Below are positions 2,843 through 41,843 of a DNA stretch of 64,000 bases, piece by piece. Under the pieces are notes generated by a model. The model was given only the letters and a program-made list of their open reading frames with translations. It had not been told where the DNA came from and did not search any database. The stretch is taken from positions 62,001 to 126,000 of the forward strand of contig JAHFED010000008.1 in the NCBI GenBank assembly GCA_023248635.1. The letters are read 5' to 3'. Source of the stretch: Myxococcales bacterium. Its GTDB lineage: Bacteria > Myxococcota > UBA727 > VGSZ01. The stretch's first letter is position 1. Each line of letters begins with the position of its first letter. The position numbers and the translations under genes were made by a program.

Positions 2843-2859
2843 GCGACGCCGCGGACTGC

Positions 2860-2865: not shown

Positions 2866-2871
2866 TGCGCC

Positions 2872-6312: not shown

Positions 6313-6780
6313 TCAACGCTCGCCGCTGATGGTCACATCGAGCTTGAAGCTGAGATCGATCAAGGCCGTCGTCTGCTGCGACGCCAGCCGGTAGTAGATC
6401 TGCTTGCCTGCGTGCCTTGAGGTCACGAGCCCGAGCCCGCGCAGCTGCTTCAACATCGTCGACGTCGCTGACATCGAGAGGGCGAGCACCGCGGCGACGT
6501 CGCCCACGCACAGCTCGGCGGCACCCAGCGCGATCACCGCTTCGAGCCGCGCGCTGCTGCCGAGGCCGGCCAGACGATCGGCGGCGCGAGCCACCTGGTC
6601 TTTGGCAGGCAGCGAGTCGAGCACTTTTTCGACGGCGTCGGGGTCAAAGACCGAGATCTCCTTGGGCTCCCCACGGTCGCCGCCAGCGGGTCGCTTCTTC
6701 GGCTTCAACTTCGGCCGCGATCGCAGCTCGATCGTGGGCCTGTCGTCGGAGCGATTGGTCTTCTTGTCTTTCTTTCCCAT
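6313..6780 (-). CDS. ArsR-like winged-helix transcriptional regulator
   Basis: This is a 155-aa protein. The N-terminal 60 residues are basic and disordered (MGKKDKKTNRSDDRP). The rest is an ArsR/SmtB-type winged helix: SARLEAVIALGAAELCVGDV, then the recognition helix ALSMSATSTMLKQLRGLGLV and the wing SRHAGKQIYYRL. In metal-sensing members the motif is ELCVCD; here it reads ELCVGD, so the second metal-binding cysteine is replaced by Gly and the effector is probably not the classical metal. It is divergent from the giant gene, with a perfect 12-bp palindrome between the two, which makes autoregulation or control of the giant gene possible. Confidence 0.75.
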   Translation of the reverse strand: MGKKDKKTNRSDDRPTIELRSRPKLKPKKRPAGGDRGEPKEISVFDPDAVEKVLDSLPAKDQVARAADRLAGLGSSARLEAVIALGAAELCVGDVAAVLALSMSATSTMLKQLRGLGLVTSRHAGKQIYYRLASQQTTALIDLSFKLDVTISGER

Positions 6781-6867
6781 GCTTTGGACAGTTCCACGAT
6801 CCAGGAAGTGACCTCAAGATTTCGGCCACAAAAACACGACCCAGAAAAAGCGCTCTGCTCCTCAAGC

Positions 6868-6879
6868 GCGCACGTGCGC
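6868..6879. promoter_or_regulatory. Perfect 12-bp palindrome, candidate operator
   Basis: GCGCACGTGCGC is fully self-complementary and lies midway in the 151-bp gap between the ArsR-like gene (start 6780, minus) and the giant gene (start 6932, plus). ArsR-type dimers bind imperfect 12-2-12 palindromes, so this is a plausible site. However, such GC-rich palindromes also arise by chance in DNA of this composition. Confidence 0.35.
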
Positions 6880-6916
6880 CTCTTCCGCCCCGCGAGCGAC
6901 AAAAACGGGCCGGTGC

Positions 6917-6922
6917 TAGCGT
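6917..6922 (+). promoter_or_regulatory. -10-like element (TGC-TAGCGT) before the giant gene
   Basis: TAGCGT (TAnnnT pattern) preceded by TGC begins 15 nt before the ATG at 6932, and no Shine-Dalgarno sequence precedes the ATG. The 5' leader would then be only a few nucleotides or absent. Confidence 0.35.
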
Positions 6923-6931
6923 CCGCCCGTC

Positions 6932-21296: not shown

Positions 21297-22616
21297 TCAC
21301 GCCGAGAGCGACTTGGTCTCGGTCTCGTAGGCGGCGTCGGCCAGGACCAGATCGAGGGCCTTTTGCGTCGACAGCTGGAATTCGAGCTCGGAGGCGCGGT
21401 TGCCCTTGGCAAAGACGCTCTTCACGGTCTTCAGCGGCGTGTTGAGCTCGGCGGCCATCTTTTCGAAGTGCTCTTCGATCTCGGTCTCGGTGATGGCGAT
21501 GTTCTCGCGCTTCACGATTTCCTCGAGGAGCAAGCTGATGCGCACCTGTCGCACCGCCATCGGCCGCGCGTCTTCTTTCATGCGCTGGCCCTGCGCCTGC
21601 CACAGCATCTCGGCCTGTTGTTGGGGCAGGCGCTGCAGGCGCTCGACCGCAATCTGCTCGGCCTGGCGATCGATGAGGCTGGCGGGGACGTCGAAGGGGT
21701 TCTGGTCGATGAGCGCTGAGATGGCGGCGTCGCGGACCTCGTTCTTGGTCTTTTGCTCGGCGACCTTGGCGATCTCCTCTTTGATCATGACCTTGAGTTG
21801 ATCGAGGGTCTCGACCTTCTCGCTCACATCCTTGGCGAATTCGTCGTCGATGTTGGGCAGCGTCTTGGACTTCAACGTCAGCGGTCGCATGCGAAAGACA
21901 GCGGTCTTGCCACGGTGGGATTCGATGCGGAAATCGTCGGGCAGCTTGACGTCGACGCTGAGGTCCTCGCCGAGCTTCTTGCCGACCAGGTGCTGCTCGG
22001 CGTCCTTGTAGGGGAACGTGCCGCCGCCGATCTCGATGACGTAGGCGACGCCGGAGAGCCCCTTCACGGGTTCGCCGTCGACGGAGCCGGACCAGTTGGT
22101 TTCGACCAAATCGCCCTGCTGGATCAAGTCCCGGCCTTCGACGGGGGCGACCTTGGCCTGCCCCTCGCGCAGGCGCGCCAACTCCTTGTCGACGTCGACG
22201 TCGCTGACCGTGTAGGTCGTCTTCTTGAGCTTCACGCCCTTCATCACCTTGAGCTCGATGACCGGCTTGATCTCGACCTTGGCGGAGTAGGCGAAGTCCA
22301 TGCCGGCGATCAGCTGCGACGGCGCCTCGATGGTGGGGTTCGCCACCGGTGAGATCGAATGCGACTTGATGGCTTCGCGGAAGCTGTTGTTGACGACGCG
22401 CTCGAGCACCTGTTGCTCGGTGTCGTTCTTGTAGAACTGCTCGAGCACTTGGCGCGGGACCTTGCCGGGGCGAAAGCCCTTGATGCGCACCTTGAGGTTG
22501 AGCTCGCGATAGGCCTTGTCGAGCTCCTTCGCGACCTGGTCGCCGGGAACCACGATCGAAAGCTGGCGCTCAACGGAAGACAGCTCTTTGAGCTCGGAGC
22601 GGATCTGCAGGGCCAT
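21297..22616 (-). CDS. tig: Trigger factor (ribosome-associated peptidyl-prolyl isomerase chaperone)
   Basis: This 439-aa protein has all three trigger-factor parts. The N-terminal ribosome-binding domain carries the signature in KGFRPGKVPRQVLEQFY (residues about 45-61); the FKBP-type PPIase middle domain runs from GDLVETNWSGSVDGEPVKG; and the helical C-terminal chaperone region includes VRQVRISLLLEEIVKRENI. Its length is close to the E. coli protein (432 aa). I set the start at MALQIRSELKEL (22616), preceded by GAGGA; the open frame extends upstream but without trigger-factor homology. It binds emerging nascent chains at the ribosome. clpP and clpX, often next to tig, are not adjacent here: its 3' neighbour is the convergent giant gene and its 5' neighbour a divergent TonB-like gene. 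Confidence 0.95.
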   Translation of the reverse strand: MALQIRSELKELSSVERQLSIVVPGDQVAKELDKAYRELNLKVRIKGFRPGKVPRQVLEQFYKNDTEQQVLERVVNNSFREAIKSHSISPVANPTIEAPSQLIAGMDFAYSAKVEIKPVIELKVMKGVKLKKTTYTVSDVDVDKELARLREGQAKVAPVEGRDLIQQGDLVETNWSGSVDGEPVKGLSGVAYVIEIGGGTFPYKDAEQHLVGKKLGEDLSVDVKLPDDFRIESHRGKTAVFRMRPLTLKSKTLPNIDDEFAKDVSEKVETLDQLKVMIKEEIAKVAEQKTKNEVRDAAISALIDQNPFDVPASLIDRQAEQIAVERLQRLPQQQAEMLWQAQGQRMKEDARPMAVRQVRISLLLEEIVKRENIAITETEIEEHFEKMAAELNTPLKTVKSVFAKGNRASELEFQLSTQKALDLVLADAAYETETKSLSA

Positions 22617-24358: not shown

Positions 24359-24981
24359 CAACCCGCCGGGACCGAGCCGTGCAGGCAGCTGATGGTGTGT
24401 GGTGCCGTCAACGACGACGGCAGCGCGGTGGCTGGATCGTCGGCGCGCTCGTGGTGGCTCGCCGGTACGCCTTCGGTGGTCGACCAGCTGGGTTCGTCGC
24501 CGGCGCGCAGGCTGTGGAGACCAGACTGCAAGGGTCCGATCACAAAGGTGTGGCCGGCGGCGCGGCAGCCGAAAAAGCGCGTGAAGGCGCGGGCGAAGGC
24601 CTGACCGCGCGGGCGTCCAAAGGTGGCGCAGGTGCGAAACCAAAAGAGGGTGTCTTCGCCGCGCACGCGTTGGCGCAGGGCGATGAGATCGTTGAGGCGC
24701 GGGTGCCCGGGATCGAAGGCGCTGACGTCGAGGACGTCGTCGGCGATGAGCACGCGACCGAACAGGCCGTGCCCCCAATACTGCACGCTGTCGATGCGCG
24801 CGCGCGGACGCACCGAGCACAGCCAGGCCAGGGCGTCCTCCCAGGAGGTGGCTCCGAAGACGTCGTCGACCGGGGCGGGGTGCCGGCGGTAGAGCGTGCT
24901 GCCGATCTTCCACGACGCCGTCAGCAGCGGCTGGAGGCGCGCCTTGCCCTGCCCCGTGGCGTCGTAGACCAGCAGGTGCAT
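24355..24981 (-). CDS. Small protein with caspase-like (clan CD) His/Cys dyad
   Basis: This 208-aa protein is of no family I can name with certainty. Two motifs stand out: VQYWGHG with H71 after a hydrophobic strand, and TLFWFRTCATFG with C118 after a hydrophobic strand 47 residues later, followed by a helix and HTFVIGPLQSG. That order (strand-HG, about 45 residues, strand-C) is the catalytic pattern of caspase-fold peptidases such as CHAT or DUF4347-type domains. No signal peptide is present. Start and stop codons overlap its neighbours by 4 nt on each side (ATGA at 24978-24981, GTGA at 24355-24358), so its product is made together with the Lys/Glu-rich membrane protein and DUF167. The peptidase call is inference. 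Confidence 0.7.
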   Translation of the reverse strand: MHLLVYDATGQGKARLQPLLTASWKIGSTLYRRHPAPVDDVFGATSWEDALAWLCSVRPRARIDSVQYWGHGLFGRVLIADDVLDVSAFDPGHPRLNDLIALRQRVRGEDTLFWFRTCATFGRPRGQAFARAFTRFFGCRAAGHTFVIGPLQSGLHSLRAGDEPSWSTTEGVPASHHERADDPATALPSSLTAPHTISCLHGSVPAGW

Positions 24982-25724
24982 CAGTGGGGGGTGATGACGA
25001 CGGTGCCGGTGCCGCCGCCTTGCAGAGCCTGCACGAGGAAGTAGCCGCCGATGCCCGCGCCCGCGAGGACGACGATGGCGCCGCCGATGGCGCTGCCGAC
25101 GATGAGACCGGTGGGGGCTCCTTCAGTCTCGTCGGGCTCTTCGACCTTGGTGTCGATGGACTTGACCTTGATCTTGGCCCCGTCGACGGCGCTGGGAGCA
25201 TCACCAGAGGTGACGTCGTCGATGACTTTGACGGTGGCGGGCAGGTTGGCGCTGCGATCGCTCTTGCTAGGGATGTCGTCGTCGTCGAGGCCGGCCGACG
25301 GCAGGGTGGCGCGGCCCTCTTTCACCGGCTCGCGGGCGCGGGTCGGCGGCTCGTCGTCGTCGAGGGCGGAGTGGTCGACCACGGGCGGCTCTTTCTTGGG
25401 CTCCTTTTTCGGTGCCTCGCGCGGTGAAACGGGCTCACCGGTGAGGATGTCGTCGTCGTCGACAGCAGCCTTCTTGCCCTCTTTCTTCGGCTCTTTCTTC
25501 GGCTCGTCCTGGTTGGGCTCTTCCTTCTTCCCCTCTTCCTTGGGCTCCTCTTTCTTCGTCTCCTTTTTGGGCTCCTTCTTGGGCTCTTTCTTGGGTTCCT
25601 TCTTGGGTTCCTTCTTGGGTTTCTCGGCGAGGTCGGCGTCGCCGTCGGGCATGTCGTCGTCGTCGGCTTGGGCCAGGGGCGCAAAGAGCAGCGCGGCGGC
25701 GATCAGGAGCTGCTTGGCGATCAT
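24981..25724 (-). CDS. Exported Lys/Glu-Pro-rich protein with C-terminal membrane segment
   Basis: This 247-aa protein has a signal peptide (MIAKQLLIAAALLFAPLAQA). A strongly charged low-complexity region follows, with KKEP repeated about ten times near residues 37-90 and a series of DDDD patches. Near the C-terminus is one hydrophobic Gly/Ala-rich segment (GLIVGSAIGGAIVVLAGAGI) with a short tail. It is probably held in the cytoplasmic membrane with the charged part outside. The repeats are encoded by near-identical 12-nt units (about 25560-25630), which can expand or contract. The start overlaps the kelch gene (ATGA, 25721-25724) and the stop overlaps the caspase-like gene. No enzymatic domain is visible. 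Confidence 0.8.
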   Translation of the reverse strand: MIAKQLLIAAALLFAPLAQADDDDMPDGDADLAEKPKKEPKKEPKKEPKKEPKKETKKEEPKEEGKKEEPNQDEPKKEPKKEGKKAAVDDDDILTGEPVSPREAPKKEPKKEPPVVDHSALDDDEPPTRAREPVKEGRATLPSAGLDDDDIPSKSDRSANLPATVKVIDDVTSGDAPSAVDGAKIKVKSIDTKVEEPDETEGAPTGLIVGSAIGGAIVVLAGAGIGGYFLVQALQGGGTGTVVITPH

Positions 25725-27537: not shown

Positions 27538-29655
27538 TCAAAAGCCCGACGACGATGCTGCCGCTTTCTGGGATTTCCAGCCCTGGCGCAGCTCGATGCG
27601 CGATTCGCCGCCCGACGACGGCGCCACGAACCACGCGCTCCCCACCCGGCGGGATTGGGCTCCTTTGGCGGGGACGAAGCTCGGCAGCCCAATGCCCCGT
27701 TTGACTTGGCCGTAGCGCACGCCGCGCACCTCGAGGGCTTGGGAGGACAAGCGGGTCATGCGGTAGCGCTCGGCTTCGACGCCATCGACGAAGGCGGTGC
27801 ACCACGCGGGCTGCAGCTTGAAGGCGAGCAAAGCCAGCAGCAGCAAGAGTCCGAGGAGGGCCGCGCCGAGCAAGAGGACCTGGAGCTTTCCATCGTTGTT
27901 GACGACGGCGACGACGGGGAAGCGGGCTTTGACCTCGGCTTCGGTGCGGCTGGTGAAAATGGTCGGCAGCGACGACGCGCCGTAAACGCGCTCGCGCTCG
28001 CCGGGTGGCACCACCAGCGAGGCGCGCACGTCGGTGACCTGGGCGGTCATCGCGCCTTCGACGAGCAGGGCATCGGTGAAGGCGACGTCGGCCATCTGCG
28101 AAAGGCTGGTGGGAGCAACGACGACGGCGGGGAGCAGCAGGCGCACTTGCAGCTTTTGTTCGCCGGCCGGATCGAGGGGACCCAGCTGAAAACGCCCGAC
28201 GTCGTCGACCGCGGCGGTGGCAGCGGTTGCTTTCACTTGTCCGGTGCAGATGGCCCCGGCCCAGGGCAGGCGCTTGGCCTCCTCTTTCTTGTGGGGGAGC
28301 AGGGTCTGCGATGTCAGCGTCAAGAAGGCGGAGTCGATGCGCTCGTGGCGCAAGTGGTTCTTGACGACGAGGGTGGCCACGCAGGGGATGACGTCGCCGA
28401 ATTCGGCGGAGCGTTTGCAGCGCAGAGGCTGAAGCAAGCCCTGTGCACTCTTTTCGAAGGAGACGCTGACAGCGTCGAGGTCCATCGGCTTGAGACGCAG
28501 GGGCACGCCCTGGATGTCGGCCTTGCTCGCACCCGCATGGTCGGCGGTGAGGGCTTTGAGCTGGTCGTTCCACAGCAGGCCGTCGGCTGTGGGAGGTCCA
28601 TCGGAGAGGTGGCCGCCCGACAGGCGGTCGACCTCGTCACCGTCGGCGCGGGCCCTGGAGCTGACTTGCAGCGCGTAGATGAAAAGTGAGGAGCCACAGA
28701 GCCAGGTGCAGGTCTCGGCGTCGTGCACGGGATAGGCGTAGACCAGCTGCAGCCGCGGCTCGCTCTTCAGGTACTCGTAGAAGGCGAGGTTGCGCTGGGC
28801 GTCTTCGGCGGAGACGCCGCCTCCCGATTGGTCCGCGATGTTGTCGGTGACGATCCAGACCAGGCCTTCGTCGTGGGAGGGGTCAGAAAGCAGGGCGTCG
28901 ACGGCGGTGCGCAGAGCCGGCTCGAGGTGGGTCTCGTTGGCGTTGGCGCCCGTGGCCTTGAACGGATCGACCGGGACCTGCTCGAAGAGCTCGCCCAAGG
29001 TCGCCGGCGACGTTGACGACAGCAGCCAAGGGAAGGTCAGCGTCACAGGCGCCGGCTCGGCTTCAAGACGCGCCAGCGTCTTGATCATCGATACTTTGCC
29101 CTGGTCGAAGGTGAACAGCCCCTTGTTGAAGAGCAGAGCGCGCATCTCGATCTGGGCCCCCGGGGGAGCAGCGGCGTCGACGAGGGAGCCGAGAAATCTC
29201 TGAAAAGCGGGGTCGCCGTAGAAGTAGGGCTGGCCGTTTCTGCGGGTGCCGATGGCGCGGCAGGTGGAGGAGCACCCGCTCGCGGCGGGTCGGTCGTAGC
29301 CGCCGAACATCGAGCCGGAGTAGTCGAGCAAGAGCACCGCGCGCAGCGGACGGGCGCCGGTGTGGGCATCCCCGGCCAAGCGACCCCCAGCAGTGGGATC
29401 AGCCGGCTTCGTCGTCGTCGTCACCCGCACCCGGGCGTCGGTTTGCACCTGCTGGGGTCCCTGAGGCTCATCGGGACAGCGCGGCGGCGGCGACTTCGCA
29501 CAGCTGGCCAAGAGCGGGAGCAGGAAAAGCCCGGCCAGTGCCCCGCATCGCGCCAATGGTCCCCAGACCCGGCCGAAACGGCCACCCTCTCCCGAGGACC
29601 AGCGAAGCCGATGAAGCAGGATGCAGGCGCGGCGAGTGGTCATTTCCATAATCAC
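27538..29655 (-). CDS. VWA-domain lipoprotein with C-terminal membrane segment
   Basis: This 705-aa protein has a signal ending in a lipobox (FLLPLLASC, Cys 52). A VWA domain with an intact MIDAS motif follows (LLLDYSGSM, D111-x-S-x-S, then LVWIVTDNIAD further on). A beta-rich region comes next, then one strong hydrophobic helix near residue 600 (VLLLGAALLGLLLLLALLAF) and a short C-terminal beta domain. Having both a lipobox and a late membrane helix is unusual and leaves topology open. GTG 29655 overlaps the stop of the zinc-ribbon/propeller gene, so translation is coupled. As last gene of the Hsp70-like block, it could be the envelope partner or client of that chaperone. Confidence 0.85.
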   Translation of the reverse strand: MIMEMTTRRACILLHRLRWSSGEGGRFGRVWGPLARCGALAGLFLLPLLASCAKSPPPRCPDEPQGPQQVQTDARVRVTTTTKPADPTAGGRLAGDAHTGARPLRAVLLLDYSGSMFGGYDRPAASGCSSTCRAIGTRRNGQPYFYGDPAFQRFLGSLVDAAAPPGAQIEMRALLFNKGLFTFDQGKVSMIKTLARLEAEPAPVTLTFPWLLSSTSPATLGELFEQVPVDPFKATGANANETHLEPALRTAVDALLSDPSHDEGLVWIVTDNIADQSGGGVSAEDAQRNLAFYEYLKSEPRLQLVYAYPVHDAETCTWLCGSSLFIYALQVSSRARADGDEVDRLSGGHLSDGPPTADGLLWNDQLKALTADHAGASKADIQGVPLRLKPMDLDAVSVSFEKSAQGLLQPLRCKRSAEFGDVIPCVATLVVKNHLRHERIDSAFLTLTSQTLLPHKKEEAKRLPWAGAICTGQVKATAATAAVDDVGRFQLGPLDPAGEQKLQVRLLLPAVVVAPTSLSQMADVAFTDALLVEGAMTAQVTDVRASLVVPPGERERVYGASSLPTIFTSRTEAEVKARFPVVAVVNNDGKLQVLLLGAALLGLLLLLALLAFKLQPAWCTAFVDGVEAERYRMTRLSSQALEVRGVRYGQVKRGIGLPSFVPAKGAQSRRVGSAWFVAPSSGGESRIELRQGWKSQKAAASSSGF
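29064..29083. repeat. CAAGACGC-GCCA-GCGTCTTG palindrome, copy 1 (inside VWA gene)
   Basis: An 8-bp inverted repeat with a 4-nt spacer. Essentially the same 20-mer is found at 44416-44435 (one mismatch) and, in reverse orientation, at 61705-61724. Here it lies within coding sequence. Confidence 0.5.
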
Positions 29656-31268
29656 GGAACCATCAAAGTGGCGTTGGTGCGGCGGGGCACCAGCCGCGCT
29701 TTGTGCAGCTGCCCGCCCTGGGCGAAGAAGACGTCGCGGCCGACGACGGCGAAGGTGCGGTCATAGAAGGCGGGTCGGGTTTCTTTGGGGCCAGGATCCA
29801 AGAAGCGCTCGGGGTTGTCGTCGACGAAGGACCAGGGTGGCAATGCGCGCAACCACAAACCTTGGCGGTCTTGCGAGAGGTAGCCGGCGGGGGTCATGAT
29901 CGGGGGCGCGATGGGGGCGCGCGCCAAGACGCTGTCGCTGGCGTTGGACTTGAGCGCCCGAGTGTAGGCCGCCGTGCTGCGCTCGGTGGCGAGCAGGAAG
30001 AGCTGGCCGGCCATGGCTTTGCCCACCGAGGCCACCCGCGTGGCGGCGCCGACGCAGAGGGCCCGCAGGGCGCCGATGTCTTTGGCTTCGAGCAGTGGCT
30101 CCCACGACCATTCCGCACCCGAGAGCACGCGCGTGAGGGGCACGCGCCACACCCTCAAGCCATCGGCGTCGTCGGCGAGCCAGAGCTCGCTCTCTCCTTT
30201 GGCGTCGTGCGCGATGAGCAAGAGCGCCCGTTCCTGCGGGACCAGCCTCAGCATCTCCTGCGGGAGAAACACCTGCGGTGCACCGGGGGCGTCGACGTCG
30301 ACGACGTGGATGTGCCCGAGCCGGCTCACCCACACCACCAGGCGGCGGACGTCGTCGTAGACGGGCGGGCGCGCGATGTCGCCGGCGGGCAGACGCTGCT
30401 GCACCTCACCCGCCTGCAAACCATCGGCACAGACGACGACGACAACGCCGGCGTCCACGCCTTCTGGTCCGACGATGGCCTGCACCAAGAAGGCGCGGGG
30501 GGGGCGGTCGCCGCACAGCAGGGGAGCCCCAATCCACTGCCCGGTTTCTGCGGGGAGCTCGCAAAACAAGCGCCCGGCCGACGTCGCCGCCGCCGACGAG
30601 CGCGGGAAAATCGCCGGGGCCAAATCGCGGATCAACACCGTGCGATCGCTGCCGAGCACCAGCGTCGTTCCCTGCAGCGCGGGAGGCAGGCGCACCGCCC
30701 GGGCATGGTCGTCGTCTTCGAGGTCGACGCCGGGCCAGGAAATGGCGTGGGCCAGCAGGGGGGCGCCGTTGTCGGGATTGAACAAGCCCACGAGACCGCC
30801 AGCGGTGACGACGACGACCACACCTTTCCACACACTCACCGAAGTGACGATTTCGTCGGGGCGGACGCCGTCGTCGTTGCCCAAGCGGGCCTGGCTCCAT
30901 TGCTTCTCGAGGTCCCAGGCGACGTCGCGACCGGGCTCTCCATAGAGCAGGCCCCGGGCATCGCGGACCGAACCCGTGCGTCTTGCGCTGCCGTTTTGCC
31001 CCGCCCAATCCAGGAGCGAGGCCTCCACCAAGCGCTGCCCCGTGGTCGAGCAACACACGAGCTGGGGACGGCGGGCGACGAAGACGGCGCGGGCTCCCTG
31101 TCCCTCGCCGACGTCGACGCGCACGAGCTCGAAGGCCCGGCCGCAGAAGGCGCACAGGCAGGCTTCGCGGTCCTCATCTGGGACGACGGGGGACGGGGCC
31201 TCGCAGTGGGGGCAAAAGAGCGGGCGCGTGAAGCGGTCGTTTTCGGCGTCCCAGCTGCGGGCGTTCAC
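29652..31268 (-). CDS. Zinc-ribbon protein with PQQ-type/beta-propeller repeats
   Basis: This 538-aa protein begins with a zinc ribbon (C19-x2-C22 in LFCPHCEAP, C39-x2-C42 in CLCAFCGRAF). About 490 residues of repeated beta-sheet follow, with WD/PQQ-like phrases (VVVVVTAGGLVGLFNPDNG, ALQGTTLVLGSDRTVLIRDL, VYDDVRRLVVWVSRLGHIHV, ESELWLADDADGLRVWRV). No signal peptide is seen, so it is probably cytoplasmic. The ribbon resembles the one opening the Hsp70-like protein two genes upstream, which suggests that both bind a shared partner. Both ends overlap neighbouring genes by 4 nt (31265-31268 and 29652-29655). A specific enzymatic activity is not evident. Confidence 0.75.
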   Translation of the reverse strand: MNARSWDAENDRFTRPLFCPHCEAPSPVVPDEDREACLCAFCGRAFELVRVDVGEGQGARAVFVARRPQLVCCSTTGQRLVEASLLDWAGQNGSARRTGSVRDARGLLYGEPGRDVAWDLEKQWSQARLGNDDGVRPDEIVTSVSVWKGVVVVVTAGGLVGLFNPDNGAPLLAHAISWPGVDLEDDDHARAVRLPPALQGTTLVLGSDRTVLIRDLAPAIFPRSSAAATSAGRLFCELPAETGQWIGAPLLCGDRPPRAFLVQAIVGPEGVDAGVVVVVCADGLQAGEVQQRLPAGDIARPPVYDDVRRLVVWVSRLGHIHVVDVDAPGAPQVFLPQEMLRLVPQERALLLIAHDAKGESELWLADDADGLRVWRVPLTRVLSGAEWSWEPLLEAKDIGALRALCVGAATRVASVGKAMAGQLFLLATERSTAAYTRALKSNASDSVLARAPIAPPIMTPAGYLSQDRQGLWLRALPPWSFVDDNPERFLDPGPKETRPAFYDRTFAVVGRDVFFAQGGQLHKARLVPRRTNATLMVP

Positions 31269-31888
31269 GTGCCACCTCCGACGACGACCAGGGCTGGCTC
31301 TTTCAGACGACGTCCCTGCTCGACACGGCCAAAGCGCTGCACGTCGACGACGACGTCTTTGGGACCGCTGCCCCTTTCGACCAGCTGGTGACGACGGGGA
31401 TCGAAGAGGGTCACAAAGGGCCGCGGCACCTCAAAGGTGAAGAGGCCCAACGAGAGCAAGGCGGGGCCAAGGTCTTCTTCGACGACGGCAGCGACGGCGT
31501 CTCCGAGGTCTTTCAGGTCATCGTTGTTCGCGTCGGCGTCGGCAAAGCGCGCGCGGGCCGCGGGGCCCAAGAAGCTCGCGAGGACATCGCACAGCGGCAG
31601 CAGATCGGGCTCGATGAAGCGCGACACCAGCAGCGAAACCGTGGGCGCGTCGTCGACGTCGACGAGGTCTTCGAGGCGTCGTCCGGTGGCCCGACACAAG
31701 CGCCGCACGTGATCAAGAGCGGGGTCCACTGACGCCGTCGACGACGACAACACCCGGTGCAGCGCCAACAAGGGCGAGAGCAGCGCCGCGCCGCCAGCCT
31801 GTGCTCCGGTCTGCCGGCGCAAGGCTGGGGGGCCGGACATCAGCAGGGTGTCGCGCTCTTGGCGTGCGGTCTGGAGGCGGGTGCTCAT
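31265..31888 (-). CDS. GrpE-like nucleotide-exchange factor
   Basis: This 207-aa protein lies immediately after, and overlaps by 4 nt, the Hsp70-like gene. Its C-terminal part matches the GrpE beta-domain order: VTLFDPRRHQLVERG (GrpE: FDPnxHEAV), VVVDVQRFGRVEQGRRLKEP (GrpE: VVEVLqkGYxxxdRVLRPA) and ALVVVGGG. The N-terminus has a short helical stretch (RLQTARQERDTLLMSG) instead of the long paired coiled coil of GrpE. The fold call rests on the C-terminal motif and on its position beside an Hsp70-like gene. It would release ADP from that partner rather than from housekeeping DnaK, whose own GrpE is presumably elsewhere. Confidence 0.75.
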   Translation of the reverse strand: MSTRLQTARQERDTLLMSGPPALRRQTGAQAGGAALLSPLLALHRVLSSSTASVDPALDHVRRLCRATGRRLEDLVDVDDAPTVSLLVSRFIEPDLLPLCDVLASFLGPAARARFADADANNDDLKDLGDAVAAVVEEDLGPALLSLGLFTFEVPRPFVTLFDPRRHQLVERGSGPKDVVVDVQRFGRVEQGRRLKEPALVVVGGGT

Positions 31889-34764
31889 CCGATCCTCCTC
31901 GCTTCAACAGTTTCAGAATTGAAAATCGCGAGAATCTTCCCTTCGGAAACGACCTCGACACGGACCTCGGTGGCGCCTTCACGCGGACACACGACCTCGA
32001 AAGCGGGCGCCCCCGTTTGGTAAAGGACGAGGCGCTGCACGGGATCGCCAAACGAGAGCTGGGCAGTGGCCGGAAGGGGGGCACCAGCTTCGAGGCCTTT
32101 GACGTCGACGAGCAAGGGGCCGCGCCGCACCTGCAACGACGCCGACAACGCCGTCTGCGAGCGCCTCTTCACCTTGAGCCAGCCGCCGCCACCGCGCCGG
32201 CTGTCGCCCAAAATCGCGGCACCCTGGGCCACACAGCGCTTGACGTCGAAGGCGGGGACGCGACCGGGCTCGACGACGAAGGGAGGAGGCGTCGCGCCGC
32301 GCGTGCTCAGGATGCGGGCCAGCACGGCCTTGCGCAGCGCCGGAATGCGCGAGGTCTGGCCGGTGAAGAGCACCGTGGTGATGTCGGCCATGACCCAACC
32401 TGCCGAGGCGACAACGGGGTCGACGAGTGCTGCGGCTTTGCCCAAGGGCTCGTGCATCATCTTCTCGAAGGCATCGCGGGTCAGGGTGACCTCGACACGG
32501 CCTTTGGGCGAGCGGCCCGGCCAATCTTCGAGCGAGGCCACCCACAGCGCTTGCGGGTCGTCGGACAGGGTCTTCTTGATGCGCTCGGCGGCGCGCAGCA
32601 CGTCGCTGGCCTTGTGAAAGATGGCGCGGGCGCTGCGGGCCTGCTCTCCGGTGGGAGCCTCGCCGCGCGCCCGACGCCACGCCTCGTAGCTCGGATAATA
32701 CAGTGCCCGCACCAAGGCGTCGACGTCGACGACGGCGCCTTCGGGTCGCTTCTGTAATTCCTTCAGCAGCCAGCTGGCCAGGGTGCGGTCGACGTCGGTG
32801 CCGCCGAAGCGGGGATCGCCTCCATTGGCCAACAGGGTGACCTCGACGTCGCCCTGCCCGGGCTCGAGGCGAAAGCGCTTCAGCCCCCTGACCTGCACGG
32901 CAGCGACATCGCAGGTGCCGCCGCCGGCGTCGAAGCAGAGGATGCGTTCGTCGTCGACCAGGGGCACTTCGCTGGGGGGCAGCGAGGCCGCCAGGTAGAC
33001 CCAGGCCAGGGTCGCTGCCAGGGCTTCGTCGACACATCGTTCAGTTTTAAAATTAGCGAAATGTGGGAAGTCGTCCGCGAGCTGGCAGGCACGGGCGGCG
33101 GTGTGCAGGGCCTTCACCATGGCATCGTCGACGCCGACGGGATGAGAGAAGACCGCGTGGCGGAAGCGCACCCCCGTGTCGACGAGCCCAAGCTCGCCCA
33201 GAAAAGAGAGAGGCAGGGCGCGCAGGCCGTCTTCGGAGCGCCTTTTGATCTCGACGAACAAGCGCGCGAGCAGCTCCGGCGTGCTGCGCTTTTGCACCCG
33301 CACGGGCCCTTGCGAGCCGACGCCGCTTTCGTCGACGAAGTTCCAATCGGTATCGGGGGCCCGGGCCACCACGCTCTTCAGCTGGCGCACGAGGTTGGTG
33401 AAGTTCTGCGGGGCGGCGTTTTCGGCGGCGGCGCCAAAGAGAAAACCATCCACCGACGACGACGACGACGTCCCGGTGAAAAAGAGCAGGGAGGCCAGGG
33501 CTTCGCGCCCGCTCTCGCGATCCAGGGGCAAAGCGTGCAGGGTGCCCGAAGGGCCGTGAAAGACGCTCACCGAGGTGTTGGAGGTGCCGAAGTCGACCCC
33601 CAAAGTCGCTTCGTCGAGGGTGCGGGTGCGGCCCAGCTCGGCGGTGAGGGTGACGTCGATGCGGCGTTGGCCGGGGTCGGGCTGCCAGCCATCGTGCTGC
33701 AGCGTCAGCGTTTTCTCGCCCCAGGGCTGCTCGAGGGCCTTCGTCGACCGCGCTTCGGGCTCGACGAGGAGCTGCAGGCTGTGGGTCGCGCCGGGTGGCA
33801 CGAGCACGCTTTGATCGTCGATCACGCGCACCCAGGGGCCCGTGTCGTCGTCGCTCAAGGTGGCGCGCTCGAGACGCACGGCGCTGTGGCCGGGGTTTTT
33901 CACCGTCAACAGCGCGCGCCGCGGGCGACCACCGGTGTGCACGACGGGCACGTCGACGACGACGAGGGTGGGGCCCCGAGCGACCAGTCCGTCGACCTGC
34001 GCGACCCGGGTGCTGCCGTCGTCGAAGGAGCAACGCAGCTCGGCGCCGAAAGCGCGCGCTCCGTCGAATCCGGCGTCCGCGATGTGAGGGTCTTGCAGAC
34101 GCAGCACGATGTCGTGGCGGCCGCCGGGTGGGAGCTCGATCGGCAAGGACTGGGGCGCGAGGCGGAGCACCGGGGCGTCCCGGGGCGTCAGGACGACGTC
34201 CGTGAGCCGCAACGCGTGGCCACCGTCATTTTCGCAAACGACGACATGTTGCAGGCCGCCACCCTCAAGGCGCTCGATGGGCACGAAGCGGAAGCGTGCA
34301 TGTTGGGGGTGCAAAGCCGCGCGGCCGCCGATGGCCAGCTCGATGGCCAGCACCCGGCGCAGGGCGAGGCTGCGCTCCTCGTCGTAGCGAATGAGGCTGG
34401 TCACCAAAGGAACGACGACGCGCCCGGGGTTTTCGGCGCTGCTCTGGCCTGGCAGCGGCAGGCGCGCGGCGTCGACGGAGAAATGCACCGGCACCGCGCC
34501 GCCTGCGGGGACGGCGACGGCGACGTCGAGCTGAGGCAAGCCCACGAGCCAGGGCGGAACAGACCGAGCATCAATGCGGCGCAGCACGAAGGCGCCGTCG
34601 ACGACGCCGTGGTTCTCCACCGACACCGTGACCGAGGTGGTGTCGAGGCCGACGCGTTGGCGCGCGTCTTTGACGACGAGGCGAGCCAGGGACACACCGC
34701 AAGCACCGCAGGCGTCGTCGAGGGCGCGGCAGAGGGTCGCGCAGGAAGGGCAGGCCACGGTCAT
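31885..34764 (-). CDS. Hsp70-like ATPase with N-terminal zinc ribbon and beta-sandwich region
   Basis: This 959-aa protein starts with a zinc ribbon (C5-x2-C8, C19-x2-C22). About 370 residues of Ig/ASH-like beta-sandwich repeats follow. An Hsp70 ATPase domain starts near 388: phosphate-1 motif LGVDFGTSNTSVSVF, phosphate-2 motif CFDAGGGTCDVAAV near 608, and adenosine motif VLFTGQTSRIPALRKAV near 795. After the ATPase only about 110 beta-rich residues remain; the usual helical lid of the peptide-binding part is absent. ATPase residues look intact, so it is probably active, but client binding may be taken over by the N-terminal region. It overlaps the upstream unknown gene and the downstream GrpE-like gene by 4 nt each. 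No J-protein gene is nearby. Confidence 0.85.
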   Translation of the reverse strand: MTVACPSCATLCRALDDACGACGVSLARLVVKDARQRVGLDTTSVTVSVENHGVVDGAFVLRRIDARSVPPWLVGLPQLDVAVAVPAGGAVPVHFSVDAARLPLPGQSSAENPGRVVVPLVTSLIRYDEERSLALRRVLAIELAIGGRAALHPQHARFRFVPIERLEGGGLQHVVVCENDGGHALRLTDVVLTPRDAPVLRLAPQSLPIELPPGGRHDIVLRLQDPHIADAGFDGARAFGAELRCSFDDGSTRVAQVDGLVARGPTLVVVDVPVVHTGGRPRRALLTVKNPGHSAVRLERATLSDDDTGPWVRVIDDQSVLVPPGATHSLQLLVEPEARSTKALEQPWGEKTLTLQHDGWQPDPGQRRIDVTLTAELGRTRTLDEATLGVDFGTSNTSVSVFHGPSGTLHALPLDRESGREALASLLFFTGTSSSSSVDGFLFGAAAENAAPQNFTNLVRQLKSVVARAPDTDWNFVDESGVGSQGPVRVQKRSTPELLARLFVEIKRRSEDGLRALPLSFLGELGLVDTGVRFRHAVFSHPVGVDDAMVKALHTAARACQLADDFPHFANFKTERCVDEALAATLAWVYLAASLPPSEVPLVDDERILCFDAGGGTCDVAAVQVRGLKRFRLEPGQGDVEVTLLANGGDPRFGGTDVDRTLASWLLKELQKRPEGAVVDVDALVRALYYPSYEAWRRARGEAPTGEQARSARAIFHKASDVLRAAERIKKTLSDDPQALWVASLEDWPGRSPKGRVEVTLTRDAFEKMMHEPLGKAAALVDPVVASAGWVMADITTVLFTGQTSRIPALRKAVLARILSTRGATPPPFVVEPGRVPAFDVKRCVAQGAAILGDSRRGGGGWLKVKRRSQTALSASLQVRRGPLLVDVKGLEAGAPLPATAQLSFGDPVQRLVLYQTGAPAFEVVCPREGATEVRVEVVSEGKILAIFNSETVEARRIG

Positions 34765-36143
34765 GGCAGGACCTCGTCGCCGGGATCGTCCCAGGCGACG
34801 ACGACGACGCTGCCGTGGCGGACCGGACCATCGAGCCGGACCCGCGATCCGCGGGCGCTGAGGAGGAGGGCAGCGACGTCGATGCCATCGCCGTCAACGG
34901 CGATGGACAAATCGCGGAAGCGGGTTGGCAGCTCCACATCTCTCGGTTCTGAAACCATCGATGTGAGGACAACTTGCGGAAGGGGGGCCGGCTCGTCGAC
35001 GTCGGGAAGGGCGACGTCGAAATCGCCGGCGTTGCGCACACCTCCCACCGCGCGGGGTGCCGGGGCCATGTCGGTGGGGGCCAGGCTCAACAGGTCGCTG
35101 CCGTCGTCGACGCGGTGCAGCCATGAGGCCCCCAGGCTTTCGACGGCGACGCCGCGGGCCCGCAGGGCGCCTTGGAGTCCGGCCCGCGCGTGAGACTCGC
35201 CGCCCACGAGCCCGACGACGTCGCCGGCGCCGACGTCGAAGCCTGCGAGCTTCTCGCTCCACCAGGAATCGCGGAGGGCGGGGAGGCGGAGCTCGAGGTT
35301 CACACGCACCAGAGCCTGACGTTGCTTTTCCTGCAGCGCGCGCAGCGTCGTCGCCAACGCGCGTGCCTTGTCGGACACATCGGGGCCGAGCTGGGCCAGC
35401 TTCGACGTCGACGACGACAGGGGCGGCACCAGCTCGCTTCCGCTCAAGCCCACCACCGCTGGAGCCCCAGCCACGCCCCTGGCCCTGCGCAAGGCGCGCT
35501 CGATGCGTTGGACGAACCAGGCCCGGCCGACGTCGTCGAAGCCCTTGGTGAACGCTTCTTGGCCCTCGGGTCCCGCGGCTTCGACGAAGAAGGCGGCGAC
35601 GTCGTGGCACAAACCCGCGGCCAGCATGGCTCGGTGTCCGGCGTCGGCGATGGTCTTCCACGAGGGCGATCCGATGAGGGCGGCGTCGTCGAGCAGCAAC
35701 ACACGGCTGTGGGCGGGGTGCGGTTTGGCCTCGAAGTCGATGATGCGGATGCCCTGGGTCTCGCACGCCGACAGCAAGGCGGCGAAGCGCAGGTGGGTTC
35801 GGACTTGGGGCGTCACCGCCAACGTCGACGTCGTCAGCTGCTGCGCGAAGGCCAGGAGCAGGGCCGGCAGCGGGGCGGTCTCGGGCCGCGTCGCGGTGGC
35901 CGCGATGTCGGGCAAGCGGCGACAGAGGGCCGCGATGCGACGGGCCTGACCCGGGACCTCCACCAAAGAAAGCAGACGAGCGACGTCGACGCCTTCGTTG
36001 CCCTCTGGGCCCGCGATGGGCCGGAGGGTGACGGGGTCGAACAGGCGAGGGGCCTCTTCGAGGCGCACACGCAAGCCCCCAAAGAGAGAGGGCACCTCGC
36101 GGGCGACGAGGACGCGTTCTGGCAGCAGGGCGGTGACGCTCAC
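34761..36143 (-). CDS. Hypothetical protein, first gene of the Hsp70-like block
   Basis: This 460-aa protein, GTG start with GAGG 8 nt upstream, matches no family I know. The central part is helical and rich in Ala and Leu (LPALLLAFAQQLTTSTLAV, ARALATTLRALQEKQRQALV). It contains RVLLLDDAALIGSPSW, reminiscent of a Rossmann-like strand-loop, and DVVGLVGGESHARAGL. The C-terminal 100 residues are beta-rich. No signal peptide, membrane segment or cysteine pair is present. Its stop overlaps the Hsp70-like start (ATGA, 34761-34764). It begins 10 nt after the purA stop, so it may be transcribed from the purA promoter. Because it leads the block, it may be the system-specific adaptor; that is inference. 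Confidence 0.7.
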   Translation of the reverse strand: MSVTALLPERVLVAREVPSLFGGLRVRLEEAPRLFDPVTLRPIAGPEGNEGVDVARLLSLVEVPGQARRIAALCRRLPDIAATATRPETAPLPALLLAFAQQLTTSTLAVTPQVRTHLRFAALLSACETQGIRIIDFEAKPHPAHSRVLLLDDAALIGSPSWKTIADAGHRAMLAAGLCHDVAAFFVEAAGPEGQEAFTKGFDDVGRAWFVQRIERALRRARGVAGAPAVVGLSGSELVPPLSSSTSKLAQLGPDVSDKARALATTLRALQEKQRQALVRVNLELRLPALRDSWWSEKLAGFDVGAGDVVGLVGGESHARAGLQGALRARGVAVESLGASWLHRVDDGSDLLSLAPTDMAPAPRAVGGVRNAGDFDVALPDVDEPAPLPQVVLTSMVSEPRDVELPTRFRDLSIAVDGDGIDVAALLLSARGSRVRLDGPVRHGSVVVVAWDDPGDEVLP

Positions 36144-36153
36144 GACGTCAACC

Positions 36154-37467
36154 TCAGGCCAAGACGTCGTTCAACACGAGCTCCTGGCCGCGCCCGGGCC
36201 CCACGCCAACGATCGAGAGGCGTACGCCGAGGGACTCCTGCACAAAGCCCAGATAGCGCCGCGCCGCGGGCGGCAGGTCGTCGAGAGAGGCGATGCGCTC
36301 GGGCACGCCGTCGAAACCGGGGAAGGTCTGGTAGACCGGCACCACTTTGTTGAGCGTGCGCACGTCGTGGGGGAAGTTCTTCAAGCGCACGCCGTCGACG
36401 TCGTAGGCCGTGGCCACTTTGATGTCACCAAAGCCCGCCAGCACGTCGAGCTTGGTGATGGCGAGGTCCGTGACTCCGTTGATGCGCACCGCGTACTTCA
36501 AGGCCACCAGATCGAGCCAGCCCGTGCGCCGCGGTCGTCCCGTCGTCGCGCCGAACTCGCCGCCTTTCTGGCGCAACGCCTCGCCTTGAGCGTCGGTGAG
36601 CTCGGTGGGAAAGGGTCCTTCGCCGACGCGGGTCGAGTAGGCCTTCAGGACCGCCAGCACGCGACCGAGCAGATTGGGGCCGACGCCGGAGCCGACGGAG
36701 GCATGGGCCGCCAGACAATTCGACGACGTCACGAAGGGGTAGGTGCCGTGATCGAGATCGAGCAGCGCGCCCTGGGCTCCCTCGAAGAGCACGCGTTTGC
36801 CAGCGGCGTGGGCCTCCGCGATGCGCGCGCCGGCGTCGTCGACGCAGGGCTTCAGCTTCTGTCCTTGCTCGCGCAGGCGCGCGATCATGTGCTCGAGCTC
36901 CTCGCCGCGGTAGACCTCGCCGTCGAGGGCTTCGAGCACGCTGTTGGCGTACATGACGCCGTGGCGCACGAATTCCGCGACGCGATCGGGCTCGACCAGA
37001 TCGTGCACCCGCAGCCCGCGCCGCGCCGCCTTGTCCTCATAGGCCGGGCCGATGCCGCGACCCGTCGTGCCGATCTTGCGCGTGCCCTTGGCCGCTTCGC
37101 GGGCTTTGTCGACCCGCTTGTGGAAAGGAAGGATGACGTGGGCCTGGTCGGCAATGACGAGGCGCGGTCCGCCAGCGCCGGCGCCGAGATCGAGGAGGCC
37201 GCGCGCGCTCAGCATCTCCATCTCTTGCAGGAGCACCTCGGGATCGATCACGCACCCGGGTCCGATGACGCAGAGCTTGTCTTTGTGCAGCACGCCCGAA
37301 GGCACCAAATGCAGGATGGTGGTGACGCCGTCGACGACGACGGTGTGTCCGGCGTTGTTGCCGCCGTGGAAGCGGACGACGACGTCGGCCTGTTCTGAGA
37401 GCCGGTCGACGATGCGGCCCTTGCCTTCGTCGCCCCACTGCGCCCCGATGCATACGGCATTGCTCAC
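36154..37467 (-). CDS. purA: Adenylosuccinate synthase
   Basis: This 437-aa protein makes adenylosuccinate from IMP and aspartate with GTP (AMP synthesis, cytoplasm). Diagnostic parts: AVCIGAQWGDEGKGRIVDRL (GTP/IMP site with the catalytic Asp), FHGGNNAGHTVV, GTTGRGIGPAYEDKAARRG, GAQGALLDLDHGTYPFVTSS, and the GTP-base segment ITKLDVLAGF. The start is GTG 37467 with GGGAG 8 nt upstream; the frame extends upstream without homology. Length fits the family (about 430 aa). purB, often linked, is not adjacent. The Hsp70-like block follows 10 nt downstream on the same strand. Confidence 0.95.
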   Translation of the reverse strand: MSNAVCIGAQWGDEGKGRIVDRLSEQADVVVRFHGGNNAGHTVVVDGVTTILHLVPSGVLHKDKLCVIGPGCVIDPEVLLQEMEMLSARGLLDLGAGAGGPRLVIADQAHVILPFHKRVDKAREAAKGTRKIGTTGRGIGPAYEDKAARRGLRVHDLVEPDRVAEFVRHGVMYANSVLEALDGEVYRGEELEHMIARLREQGQKLKPCVDDAGARIAEAHAAGKRVLFEGAQGALLDLDHGTYPFVTSSNCLAAHASVGSGVGPNLLGRVLAVLKAYSTRVGEGPFPTELTDAQGEALRQKGGEFGATTGRPRRTGWLDLVALKYAVRINGVTDLAITKLDVLAGFGDIKVATAYDVDGVRLKNFPHDVRTLNKVVPVYQTFPGFDGVPERIASLDDLPPAARRYLGFVQESLGVRLSIVGVGPGRGQELVLNDVLA

Positions 37468-37557
37468 GTCGTCGACTCCCGGTCCGGTGTGGCCCTGTGC
37501 GCGCAAGGTGTGGCTGTTCTGGGAAACGATGACAAGGCCGCCGGACCAGGGCCGTCG

Positions 37558-38522: not shown

Positions 38523-38885
38523 ATGCGCCGCATCGAGCTTCAAAAGACCTGGCACTTCGAGGCGGCCCGTCGCCTGACGGGGCTCCCTGCCGATCACCGG
38601 TGCGCACGGCTGCACGGATCGAGCTTCACCGTCGAAGTCACCGTCGAAGCCCCCATCGACAACGCCACCGGCTGGGTCATCGACTTCGATGTCATGGAAC
38701 GGGTGTGGCAGCCGGTGCACGATCAGCTCGATCATCGCTTGCTCAACGACGTCGACGGCTTGGCGAATCCCACCACCGAGCACATCGCGCTGTGGCTCCT
38801 GCAGCGGCTGAGCTTTGAGGGCGCCAAGGTGCGACGGGTGTCTGTGGCCGAATTGCCCACGGCCAAGGTCACCGTCTACGCATGA
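38523..38885 (+). CDS. QueD/PTPS-like protein lacking two zinc ligands
   Basis: This 120-aa protein has the shape of a 6-pyruvoyl-tetrahydropterin synthase/QueD subunit: WHFEAARRL (10-18), DHRCARLHGSSFTVEVTV (24-41), WVIDFDVMERVW (51-62), LDHRLLND (69-76), NPTTEHIA (82-89) and a late Glu (VAELPT). The proton-transfer residues C27, D70-H71 and E110 are kept. Of the three zinc-binding histidines only H31 remains: the first is Arg16 (AAH to AAR) and the third is Ser33 (HGH to HGS). The normal pterin reaction is therefore unlikely without a changed metal site. Its stop overlaps the DUF58 start (ATGA, 38882-38885), which ties it to the BatA-type operon rather than to queuosine genes. Confidence 0.75.
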   Translation: MRRIELQKTWHFEAARRLTGLPADHRCARLHGSSFTVEVTVEAPIDNATGWVIDFDVMERVWQPVHDQLDHRLLNDVDGLANPTTEHIALWLLQRLSFEGAKVRRVSVAELPTAKVTVYA

Positions 38886-39798
38886 CACCCGGCAAGAGCT
38901 CCCGCGCACTCGAGGACGAGGAGCTCAAGGCCCTGCTCGCCCGGGTCCGACAAGTGGAGCTGCGGGCCAAGAAGAAGTCGTCGGCGTCGACGACGGGGGC
39001 CTGGCATTCTCGTTACAAGGGTCGGGGCATGGCCTTCTCCGAGAGCCGGGCCTTCGCCGACGGTGACGATCCGCGGCACGTCGATTGGCGCGCCACCGCG
39101 CGCACGGGCGAGCTCTATGTGAAGCAATTCGTCGAAGAGCGGGAGCTCACGCTGCTGCTCGTCGTCGACATCTCGGGCTCGATGACCACCGGTTCGCGCG
39201 CCCGGCTGCGTCGACAGCTCGCCGCCGAAGTGAGCGCCGTGCTCGCCCTCTCGGCGTCGAAGAACCAGGACAAGGTCGGACTCGTGGCCTTCACCGACGT
39301 CCCCGAGCGGCTGGTGCAACCAGGCAAGGGCCGGCCCCACACCTTGAGGGTCATCCGCGACGTGCTCGCGCTGCGCCCGCGATCGTTGAAGACGGCGTTG
39401 GCCCCTGCTCTCGAGGTCGCGGGTCATTTGGTGCGCCAGCGCTCCATCATCGTCGTCGTCAGCGACTTCGTCGGCGTCGCCCTGCCGCTCGATCGCCTGC
39501 GCGCGCTCGCCCTGCGCCACGATGTCGCCGTCGTCGAAATCCGCGATCCCCTCGATCACACCTTGCCCGACGTCGGCCTCCTCAGCGTGCGCGACGCCGA
39601 GAGCGGCCGGCAGACCCTCGTCGACACCTCTGATGCCCGCGTGGTCTCGGCCTTTCGCGATCGGCATCTGCAGACCGTGAAGAGGAGGGAGAGCGAGCTG
39701 CAGCGCGCCGGCGTCGATCACGTCGTCGTGGGAATGGGCGACGACGACGCCTTGTTGCCCCTGCTTCGTTTCCTGCGGCAGCGATCCCGGAGGATGTC

Positions 39799-39802
<4 letters not shown>
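38882..39802 (+). CDS. DUF58-family protein (VWA-like)
   Basis: This 306-aa protein carries the DUF58 hallmark: RGMAFSESRAFADGDDPRHV, then DWRATARTGELYVKQFVEER, then LLLVVDISGSM, a VWA-like MIDAS strand, and IIVVVSDF further on. DUF58 proteins normally form an operon with a MoxR AAA+ ATPase and BatA/BatD-type membrane proteins, in chaperone- or metal-insertase-like systems that act at the cytoplasmic membrane. Here the upstream partner is the QueD-like gene, and the next two genes are BatD- and BatA-like. Every junction is a 4-nt overlap. Confidence 0.85.
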
Positions 39803-40793
<991 letters not shown>

Positions 40794-40797
<4 letters not shown>

Positions 40798-41843
40798 ACG
40801 GGCTCCACTCGGTCTGGATCGCGTTGAACGCCAACGGTGTGCGCAGCATCGAGCTCGAGCACCGCTGGTGGTTGCTGGGCCTGATCCCCATCGCTGCCGT
40901 CGTCGTCGTCGCCTTCTTTCTCGATCGGGCGCGTCCCACGCTGCGTTTTGCCCGCGGCGACGAAGCCCATGCCCTGCCCCGCGGAGCCGGTGCTGCTGCC
41001 CGCACGATCTCGATGGTGCTCGTCGCGGTGGCGGCGCTGCTCGTGACTGTGGCGCTGTCTGGTCCCTTCGTGCGCGGAGAGCCCGATGCGGCGACGTCGG
41101 AAGGCATCGACATCGTCGTCGCCCTCGACGTCTCTGGGTCCATGCGGGCCGCGGATTTCAGGCCCAAGGATCGGATCTCCGTCGCCAAAGAAGTCATTCG
41201 CGATCATGTGCTCTCGCGCCCGCGCGATCGCGTCGGCCTCGTCGTCTTCGCCGGCGAAGCCTTCACCCAGGCGCCCCTGACCCATGACAAAGCGCTGCTC
41301 GCGACCGTGCTCGACGGCGTCCGCAGCGGCGTCATCGCCGACGGAACGGCCATCGGTGACGGCTTGGCTTTGGCCTTGGCCCGCTTGGAGACATCCAAAG
41401 CCAAAACCAAGACCGTGATCCTCTTGAGCGACGGCGACAACAATGCGGGGCAGCTCGCTCCCGAGACCTCGCTCTCGATGGCCAAGGAGCTGTCGATCAA
41501 GGTCTTCACGATCCTGGTCGGCAAGGGCGGGCGCGTCCCCTTCCCCGACGGCGTCGACATCTTTGGGGCGCCTCGTTTTGTCACCGTTGACATGCCGGTG
41601 AATCCAGCGCTGTTGAAGCAGATCGCCCGCGATACTGGCGCCAGCTTTTTTCAAGCAACCGATAAGAAATCGCTAGAAACCAGCTTTCAAAAGATATTGG
41701 AAGCTCTCGACAGGAGCGTGCTCGAGGGCACGCCATCGGTGCGAAAACCGCTGCCGCTGGGCGTGCTGCTGTTCTTCCCTGCGTTCGTTCTGCTCGTTGC
41801 CGCTGCGATTTTGCGACTGACACGGGGCTCCATCGTGCCCTGA
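40794..41843 (+). CDS. BatA-like VWA membrane protein
   Basis: This 349-aa protein has a membrane helix near 26-43 (WWLLGLIPIAAVVVVAFFL), a second near 74-89 (MVLVAVAALLVTVALSG), a VWA domain with intact MIDAS (VVALDVSGSMRAADF; VILLSDGDNNAG), and a C-terminal membrane helix (LGVLLFFPAFVLLVAAAILRL). This is the classic BatA/BatB architecture with the VWA domain between helices. It closes the four-gene operon. The MoxR ATPase that usually drives such systems is absent from this stretch. The short region before the last helix (ASFFQATDKKSLETSFQKI) is less GC-rich than the rest. Confidence 0.85.

Follow-up and report, generated by a model that had tools for sequence, protein, structure and literature searches.

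A five-gene myxobacterial operon combining an Hsp70-superfamily ATPase, a remote GrpE homolog and a candidate VWA lipoprotein

In this study, we analyzed a 64,000-nucleotide stretch from the 6.5-Mb draft genome of a Myxococcales bacterium (GCA_023248635.1, contig JAHFED010000008.1, positions 62,001 to 126,000; hereafter the window, in which all positions are given) and focused on a block of five minus-strand genes at 27538–36143. What is new is the combination of three elements: a protein in which a zinc ribbon, beta-sandwiches and an Hsp70 ATPase are fused, a GrpE-like factor of its own and a candidate VWA lipoprotein; Hsp70 paralogs with dedicated roles are already established in myxobacteria. 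We tentatively favor, at somewhat less than even confidence, the reading that the five genes form one operon for a dedicated, membrane-associated, ATP-driven switch of the Hsp70/GrpE type, which would operate beneath the inner membrane without a J-protein and would be coupled to a periplasmic VWA sensor. This reading draws support from the gene order and overlaps kept in a second species, the intact Hsp70 motifs and a GrpE homology measured against controls. Additional support comes from the lipobox, the metal ion-dependent adhesion site (MIDAS) motif and the transmembrane helix of the gene 5 protein, as well as from the conserved cysteines of the zinc ribbons.

Organization and conservation of the operon

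All five open reading frames (ORFs) are present in the block, and the same genes occur in the lake metagenome-assembled genome (MAG) CAJBHN01, an uncultured Myxococcales of the same genus and another species (hereafter the sister MAG). The genes and their junctions are as follows.

34761–36143, minus strand: gene 1, 460 amino acids, without a known family
31885–34764, minus strand: gene 2, 959 amino acids, Hsp70-superfamily ATPase with an N-terminal zinc ribbon and a beta-sandwich array
31265–31888, minus strand: gene 3, 207 amino acids, GrpE-like protein
29652–31268, minus strand: gene 4, 538 amino acids, N-terminal zinc ribbon, remainder without a family
27538–29655, minus strand: gene 5, 705 amino acids, candidate VWA-type lipoprotein with a C-terminal membrane helix and a predicted cytoplasmic tail of about 90 residues
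34761–34764, minus strand: overlap of genes 1 and 2, ATGA here and GTGA in the sister MAG
31885–31888, minus strand: overlap of genes 2 and 3, ATGA here and in the sister MAG
31265–31268, minus strand: overlap of genes 3 and 4, GTGA here and ATGA in the sister MAG
29652–29655, minus strand: overlap of genes 4 and 5, GTGA here and in the sister MAG

A preliminary description of this DNA had reported five minus-strand genes with a 4-nucleotide overlap at each of the four junctions, and both the coordinates and the junction letters agree with it. These overlaps mark a real, tight operon but are ordinary for this genome; they are not unusual in themselves because the same −4 spacing is found at 17 of the 91 other co-directional junctions sampled there (19%, by our own gene calls). 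The chance of four successive −4 junctions is approximately 0.001, or approximately 0.01 if close spacing is conditioned on.

In the sister MAG, the order of the five genes is identical and all four ATGA/GTGA overlaps are kept, and the block is divided between two contigs, the break falling within the Hsp70-like gene (residues 1–880 on one and 883–957 on the other). Over the available parts, protein identities for genes 1 to 5 are 43, 57, 41, 64 and 59%, where the value for gene 1 covers the C-terminal two thirds and that for gene 5 covers the N-terminal 219 residues. Moreover, a frame-broken fragment of the C-terminus of the VWA protein, comprising the membrane helix and the tail, stands alone on a third contig (1501–1869 of the extracted locus, minus strand) next to a divergent metallophosphatase gene (1898–2953, plus strand); this fragment may reflect an error of assembly or a degenerated copy.

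To define the distribution of the block, we searched 195 genomes of the phylum, with a limited number of candidates scored per genome, so that very divergent members could escape. Profile and sequence searches with each protein found no detectable copy of genes 1 to 5 in the 193 other genomes, which include the third species of the genus and one other member of the family. The preliminary description had proposed, as a check, asking whether the genes stay together across Myxococcota, and they are linked in the sister MAG, the sole other genome in which they were found. In 84,980 GTDB species genomes, pattern scans likewise found the sister MAG alone, using a few patterns that distant members could escape. 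A search with the N-terminal region of gene 2 that excludes the Hsp70 domain, chosen to avoid competition from DnaK, added a few weak matches with no Hsp70 gene among the ORFs there. Translated searches (tblastn) of plasmids and phages gave ordinary Hsp70-like matches only, and nothing similar was seen in the two plasmid neighborhoods inspected. Furthermore, the divergent Hsp70s elsewhere in this genome lie in other contexts with no relatives of gene 1, 3, 4 or 5 nearby; a weak gene 3 match there, to a nucleotidyltransferase-like protein, was taken as chance. The divergent GrpE paralogs examined in other Myxococcota mostly adjoin DnaJ, and no relatives of the block accompany them.

The Hsp70-type ATPase and its GrpE-like partner

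The segments distinguished in the products of genes 2 and 3 are listed below.

34699–34752, minus strand: zinc ribbon of gene 2 (C5, C8, C19, C22), 4/4 cysteines kept in the sister MAG; Zn_ribbon_3 at E=0.056, below the cut-off
33610–34683, minus strand: beta-sandwich (Ig/ASH-like) repeat region, gene 2 residues 28–385, from AlphaFold strands and Foldseek
32185–33609, minus strand: Hsp70 nucleotide-binding domain, gene 2 residues 386–860, from alignment to the genome's own DnaK
31891–32088, minus strand: short C-terminal beta domain in the place of the substrate-binding domain, gene 2 residues 893–958, from AlphaFold strands with a predicted local distance difference test (pLDDT) score of about 60
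31271–31654, minus strand: GrpE-homologous segment, gene 3 residues 79–206, from hhalign, including the C-terminal FDPxxH...EPAxVVV beta region

Based on profile matches, gene 2 encodes a true Hsp70-superfamily ATPase. The protein matches the Pfam HSP70 model (PF00012) with 62.3 bits against a cut-off of 20.6 (E=3.5e-17), the sister MAG copy reaches 61.7 bits, and the best NCBIfam matches are DnaK models (E=4e-19). Together with the four cysteines conserved in both species, these matches bear out the preliminary description of an Hsp70-like protein with a zinc ribbon. In the alignment to the genome's own DnaK, the active-site motifs GVDFGTSN, K463, E580, DAGGGTCD, GGDPRFGG and TGQTSRIP are kept in both species and cover the phosphate loops, the catalytic lysine, the glutamate and the adenosine-binding motifs. 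The nucleotide-binding domain is also the best-conserved part of the protein between the two species (67% identity), compared with 43% for the preceding sandwich region. In that region, the AlphaFold model places strands in residues 170–377 at a pLDDT of about 55–78, which is low confidence, and Foldseek returns HYDIN/CEP192-SPD2/RbmA-type sandwiches with low template modeling scores. Otherwise, the models that AlphaFold gave for genes 1 and 2 are of too low quality to assign a fold.

The C-terminal part of gene 2 departs from DnaK. By hhalign, its last 100 or so residues are unrelated to the substrate-binding domain of DnaK (probability 0.4%), and the segment is too short for a lid. In E. coli DnaK, R151, N170 and T173 contribute to coupling between domains or with the J-domain; the equivalent positions of gene 2 are V, D and L. 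Additionally, an HPD motif is found in none of the five block proteins, a search that J-proteins encoded elsewhere lie outside. A folding-chaperone role for gene 2 is doubtful because no substrate-binding domain is detectable and the equivalents of R151, N170 and T173 are changed, and we infer that the protein is an active ATPase rather than a classical folding chaperone.

For gene 3, neither the Pfam GrpE model (PF01025) nor any other Pfam family gives a match. Aligned by hhalign to 18 Myxococcota GrpEs, however, the two-sequence profile of gene 3 scores 44.7 (probability 86%, E 5e-6), with homology in the helical as well as the C-terminal beta regions. The score is no more than 22.6 in 30 column-shuffled controls and 25.3 for the reversed profile, and the other block proteins tested give nothing. 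Similarly, the best non-self match of the gene 3 profile among the 195 genomes is a canonical GrpE of another genome of the phylum. The earlier designation of gene 3 as GrpE-like is therefore upheld as remote homology, with a score above all controls, and the protein is a predicted exchange factor.

Products of genes 1, 4 and 5 and the genomic surroundings

The features recognized in genes 4 and 5 are as follows.

31143–31214, minus strand: zinc ribbon of gene 4 (C19, C22, C39, C42), conserved in the sister MAG; Zn_Ribbon_TF at E=0.056, below the cut-off
29500–29511, minus strand: lipobox LASC (C52) of gene 5, ending the hydrophobic segment 34–52; VSSC at the same place in the sister MAG
29311–29325, minus strand: MIDAS motif DYSGS (DYSGSM), gene 5 residues 111–115, conserved in the sister MAG
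27823–27879, minus strand: transmembrane helix, gene 5 residues 593–611, mean hydropathy 2.96

Based on these features, gene 5 looks like a VWA-type lipoprotein with a C-terminal membrane helix. The MIDAS site shows a weak local match, at the same motif, to a BatA-like VWA protein of the window; among the further MIDAS positions, a downstream ETH is present in both species, and a later D (VTDN) is seen only in this genome. The transmembrane helix and the proximal tail are 69% identical to the fragment on the third contig of the sister MAG. The name VWA lipoprotein, given in the preliminary description, thus has the lipobox and the conserved MIDAS motif in its favor, whereas Pfam gives no VWA match. 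The same description had named gene 4 a zinc-ribbon propeller. The ribbon stands, with its four cysteines conserved in both species; the propeller is not confirmed, as no family match, solved relative or internal repeat by self-comparison was found, a search that a propeller recognizable by fold only would escape. Gene 1 has no Pfam, NCBIfam or PADLOC match, and its AlphaFold model, which is unreliable (pLDDT 34), predicts a largely helical protein with beta structure in a C-terminal segment. A PLD-like HxK motif noticed in it by eye (HSRVLLLD...GS) was rejected, having no profile support and lying where the sister copy is cut off.

Other VWA genes lie elsewhere in the window, at 38882–41843 on the plus strand, opposite to the block, where a DUF58/VWA gene, a gene of unknown type and the BatA-like VWA gene stand in a row. 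Genes of the DUF58/VWA/BatA type usually travel with MoxR; no MoxR ATPase was recognized among the neighboring genes examined.

Immediately upstream of the block, the stop of purA (adenylosuccinate synthetase, 36154–37506) lies 10 nucleotides before the start of gene 1, and the block may therefore share the purA transcript and be read from the purA promoter. Downstream, a Kelch-repeat lipoprotein gene follows after 77 nucleotides, and the trigger factor gene (21297–22616, minus strand) lies about 5 kb away. The G+C content at third codon positions is 0.79–0.86 in the five genes and 0.86 in purA, values that do not point to a recent acquisition of the block from a foreign source. Elsewhere in the window, a single ORF of 4765 amino acids (6932–21229, plus strand) matches no Pfam family apart from TPR, for which it has weak, scattered hits. 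The product of 24981–25724 (minus strand), secreted or membrane-bound, has long repeats of the KKEPKKEP type and a single helix at its C-terminus.

A putative switch, its alternatives and related systems

In the favored mechanism, the VWA domain of gene 5 would sense a ligand or partner in the periplasm, and its state would be passed through the membrane helix and the short conserved cytoplasmic tail. Docking of the gene 2 ATPase would rely on its own beta-sandwiches and zinc ribbon, in concert with the zinc-ribbon protein of gene 4 and the gene 1 protein. The ATPase would cycle between an ATP form and an ADP form, binding or releasing the docked assembly, and the gene 3 protein would reset it by nucleotide exchange. 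With a J-protein and a canonical substrate-binding domain both missing, gene 2 is probably a conformational clamp for its partner proteins and not a chaperone for folding in general. A bolder reading, somewhat unlikely in our estimate, is a new kind of transmembrane signaling or assembly device: a periplasmic VWA receptor whose motor in the cytoplasm would be an Hsp70 that lacks the substrate-binding domain, is tuned by its own GrpE-like factor and carries zinc-ribbon and Ig-like docking modules.

Several observations weigh against the switch. It depends on putative interactions among the gene products, and the proteins of genes 1 and 4 are without an assigned function. The relation of gene 3 to GrpE is remote, with approximately 26% identity over 112 columns, and the GrpE motif RVLRPA reads R-L-K/V-E-P-A in gene 3. 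The VWA and propeller folds of genes 5 and 4 are without profile support, and the AlphaFold predictions for genes 1 and 2, built from two-sequence alignments, are of low confidence. Moreover, the block is known from two genomes, one of them fragmentary, so that conservation of the linkage is a single comparison.

Of the published systems, the nearest found are the GTPase-centric GAP1-N2 conflict systems (Kaur et al. 2020, eLife 9:e52696, PMC7159879), which come with an HSP70 and GrpE theme whose parts form a thresholded, membrane-proximal immune module (PMC7159879). Like the block, these systems combine HSP70 and GrpE in one neighborhood with zinc ribbons, beta-sandwich (FNIII-type) repeats, vWA and membrane proteins (PMC7159879), and a subset of them has an Hsp70 without the peptide-binding part. 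Unlike them, the block lacks the DO-GTPase, GAP1 and DnaJ, and it joins ribbon, sandwiches and Hsp70 in a single polypeptide; in addition, most published examples of the HSP70 theme come from actinobacteria and firmicutes. The block fails membership because the GTPase and GAP1 are absent, although its working style may be similar. That it is a derived relative of these anti-invader systems, with GTPase and GAP1 lost or replaced, is unlikely. The parts shared with the published second theme would fit such a descent, as would the patchy distribution (2/3 species of the genus) and the occurrence of multicellular bacteria in the phylum. However, there is no TRAFAC GTPase among the five genes, no GAP1-M domain in gene 1 or in the whole genome (the C. 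glutamicum control was positive), no PADLOC match and no recognizable effector, and the neighbors are housekeeping genes (purA, trigger factor) rather than a defense island.

The preliminary description had instead proposed a dedicated chaperone system with the membrane VWA protein as client or receptor, which the gene linkage suggests, and with the two zinc ribbons as a shared docking code, which would have the conserved cysteines in its favor. As a biogenesis chaperone, the Hsp70/GrpE-like pair would keep the gene 5 lipoprotein, or the proteins of genes 1 and 4, competent for export or assembly. Translation from one operon, with overlaps kept in a second species, and the GrpE-like partner agree with this proposal. 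In contrast, gene 2 has no recognizable substrate-binding domain and the block no J-protein, the ribbon and sandwiches would be superfluous for a holdase, and the zinc-ribbon protein of gene 4 would be left unexplained; we consider the proposal improbable. What persists of it is the dedicated pair, encoded in the same operon as a membrane VWA protein, while the folding role is made doubtful by the undetectable substrate-binding domain and the changed R151, N170 and T173 equivalents. Finally, it is very unlikely that gene 2 has turned into a cytoskeleton-like or scaffold actin-fold ATPase with the GrpE-like protein as a structural dimerizer devoid of exchange activity: the nucleotide-binding domain without a substrate-binding domain, the weak MreB match of a divergent Hsp70 elsewhere in the genome and the altered GrpE motif would suit this, but gene 2 matches HSP70 and DnaK models rather than MreB, and a single copy beside a GrpE homolog favors an exchange cycle.

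Comparable systems are also known among myxobacterial Hsp70s. According to the parts of the literature available to us, SglK/GrpS of M. xanthus (MXAN_6671/MXAN_6672; PMC8265645, PMC10313047) is, like the block, an additional Hsp70 with an additional GrpE homolog at adjacent locus numbers in a myxobacterium, and its specialized role in the cell surface and social motility can be likened to a dedicated Hsp70. Unlike gene 2, SglK is a complete DnaK (PRK00290) and complements dnaK of E. coli, and unlike gene 3, GrpS is a recognizable GrpE; the same parts report no VWA, zinc-ribbon or beta-sandwich partners. Similarly, the PilZ-DnaK proteins CsdK1 and CsdK2 of M. xanthus, in the portion of PMC10313047 consulted, resemble gene 2 as an Hsp70 fused to an extra sensory domain with a dedicated client; there, the added domain is PilZ instead of a zinc ribbon and sandwiches, the client is CdbS, and no GrpE of their own is described. 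Within the same genome as the block, a DUF2760 gene and a divergent Hsp70 gene, the latter also weakly matching MreB, form a pair with a 4-nucleotide overlap (6753–9172 of the extracted locus, minus strand). This pair differs from the block in that the partner is DUF2760 and not GrpE-like, and no VWA or zinc-ribbon gene was seen adjoining it. The statement in the preliminary description that no such system had been described thus holds in part: systems with Hsp70 and GrpE are published (PMC7159879; GrpS/SglK in PMC10313047 and PMC8265645), while the exact composition and fusions of the block appear neither in the GAP1-N2 paper nor in the SglK/GrpS papers, as far as the portions consulted extend.

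At present, the general importance of the block is limited, as the system is rare and its known occurrences are two draft genomes of one genus. Should the switch model be correct, it would show an Hsp70-GrpE cycle that dispenses with a J-protein and with a normal substrate-binding domain and that serves as a receptor-coupled switch and not in folding, and the reach of Hsp70-cycle repurposing would become testable.

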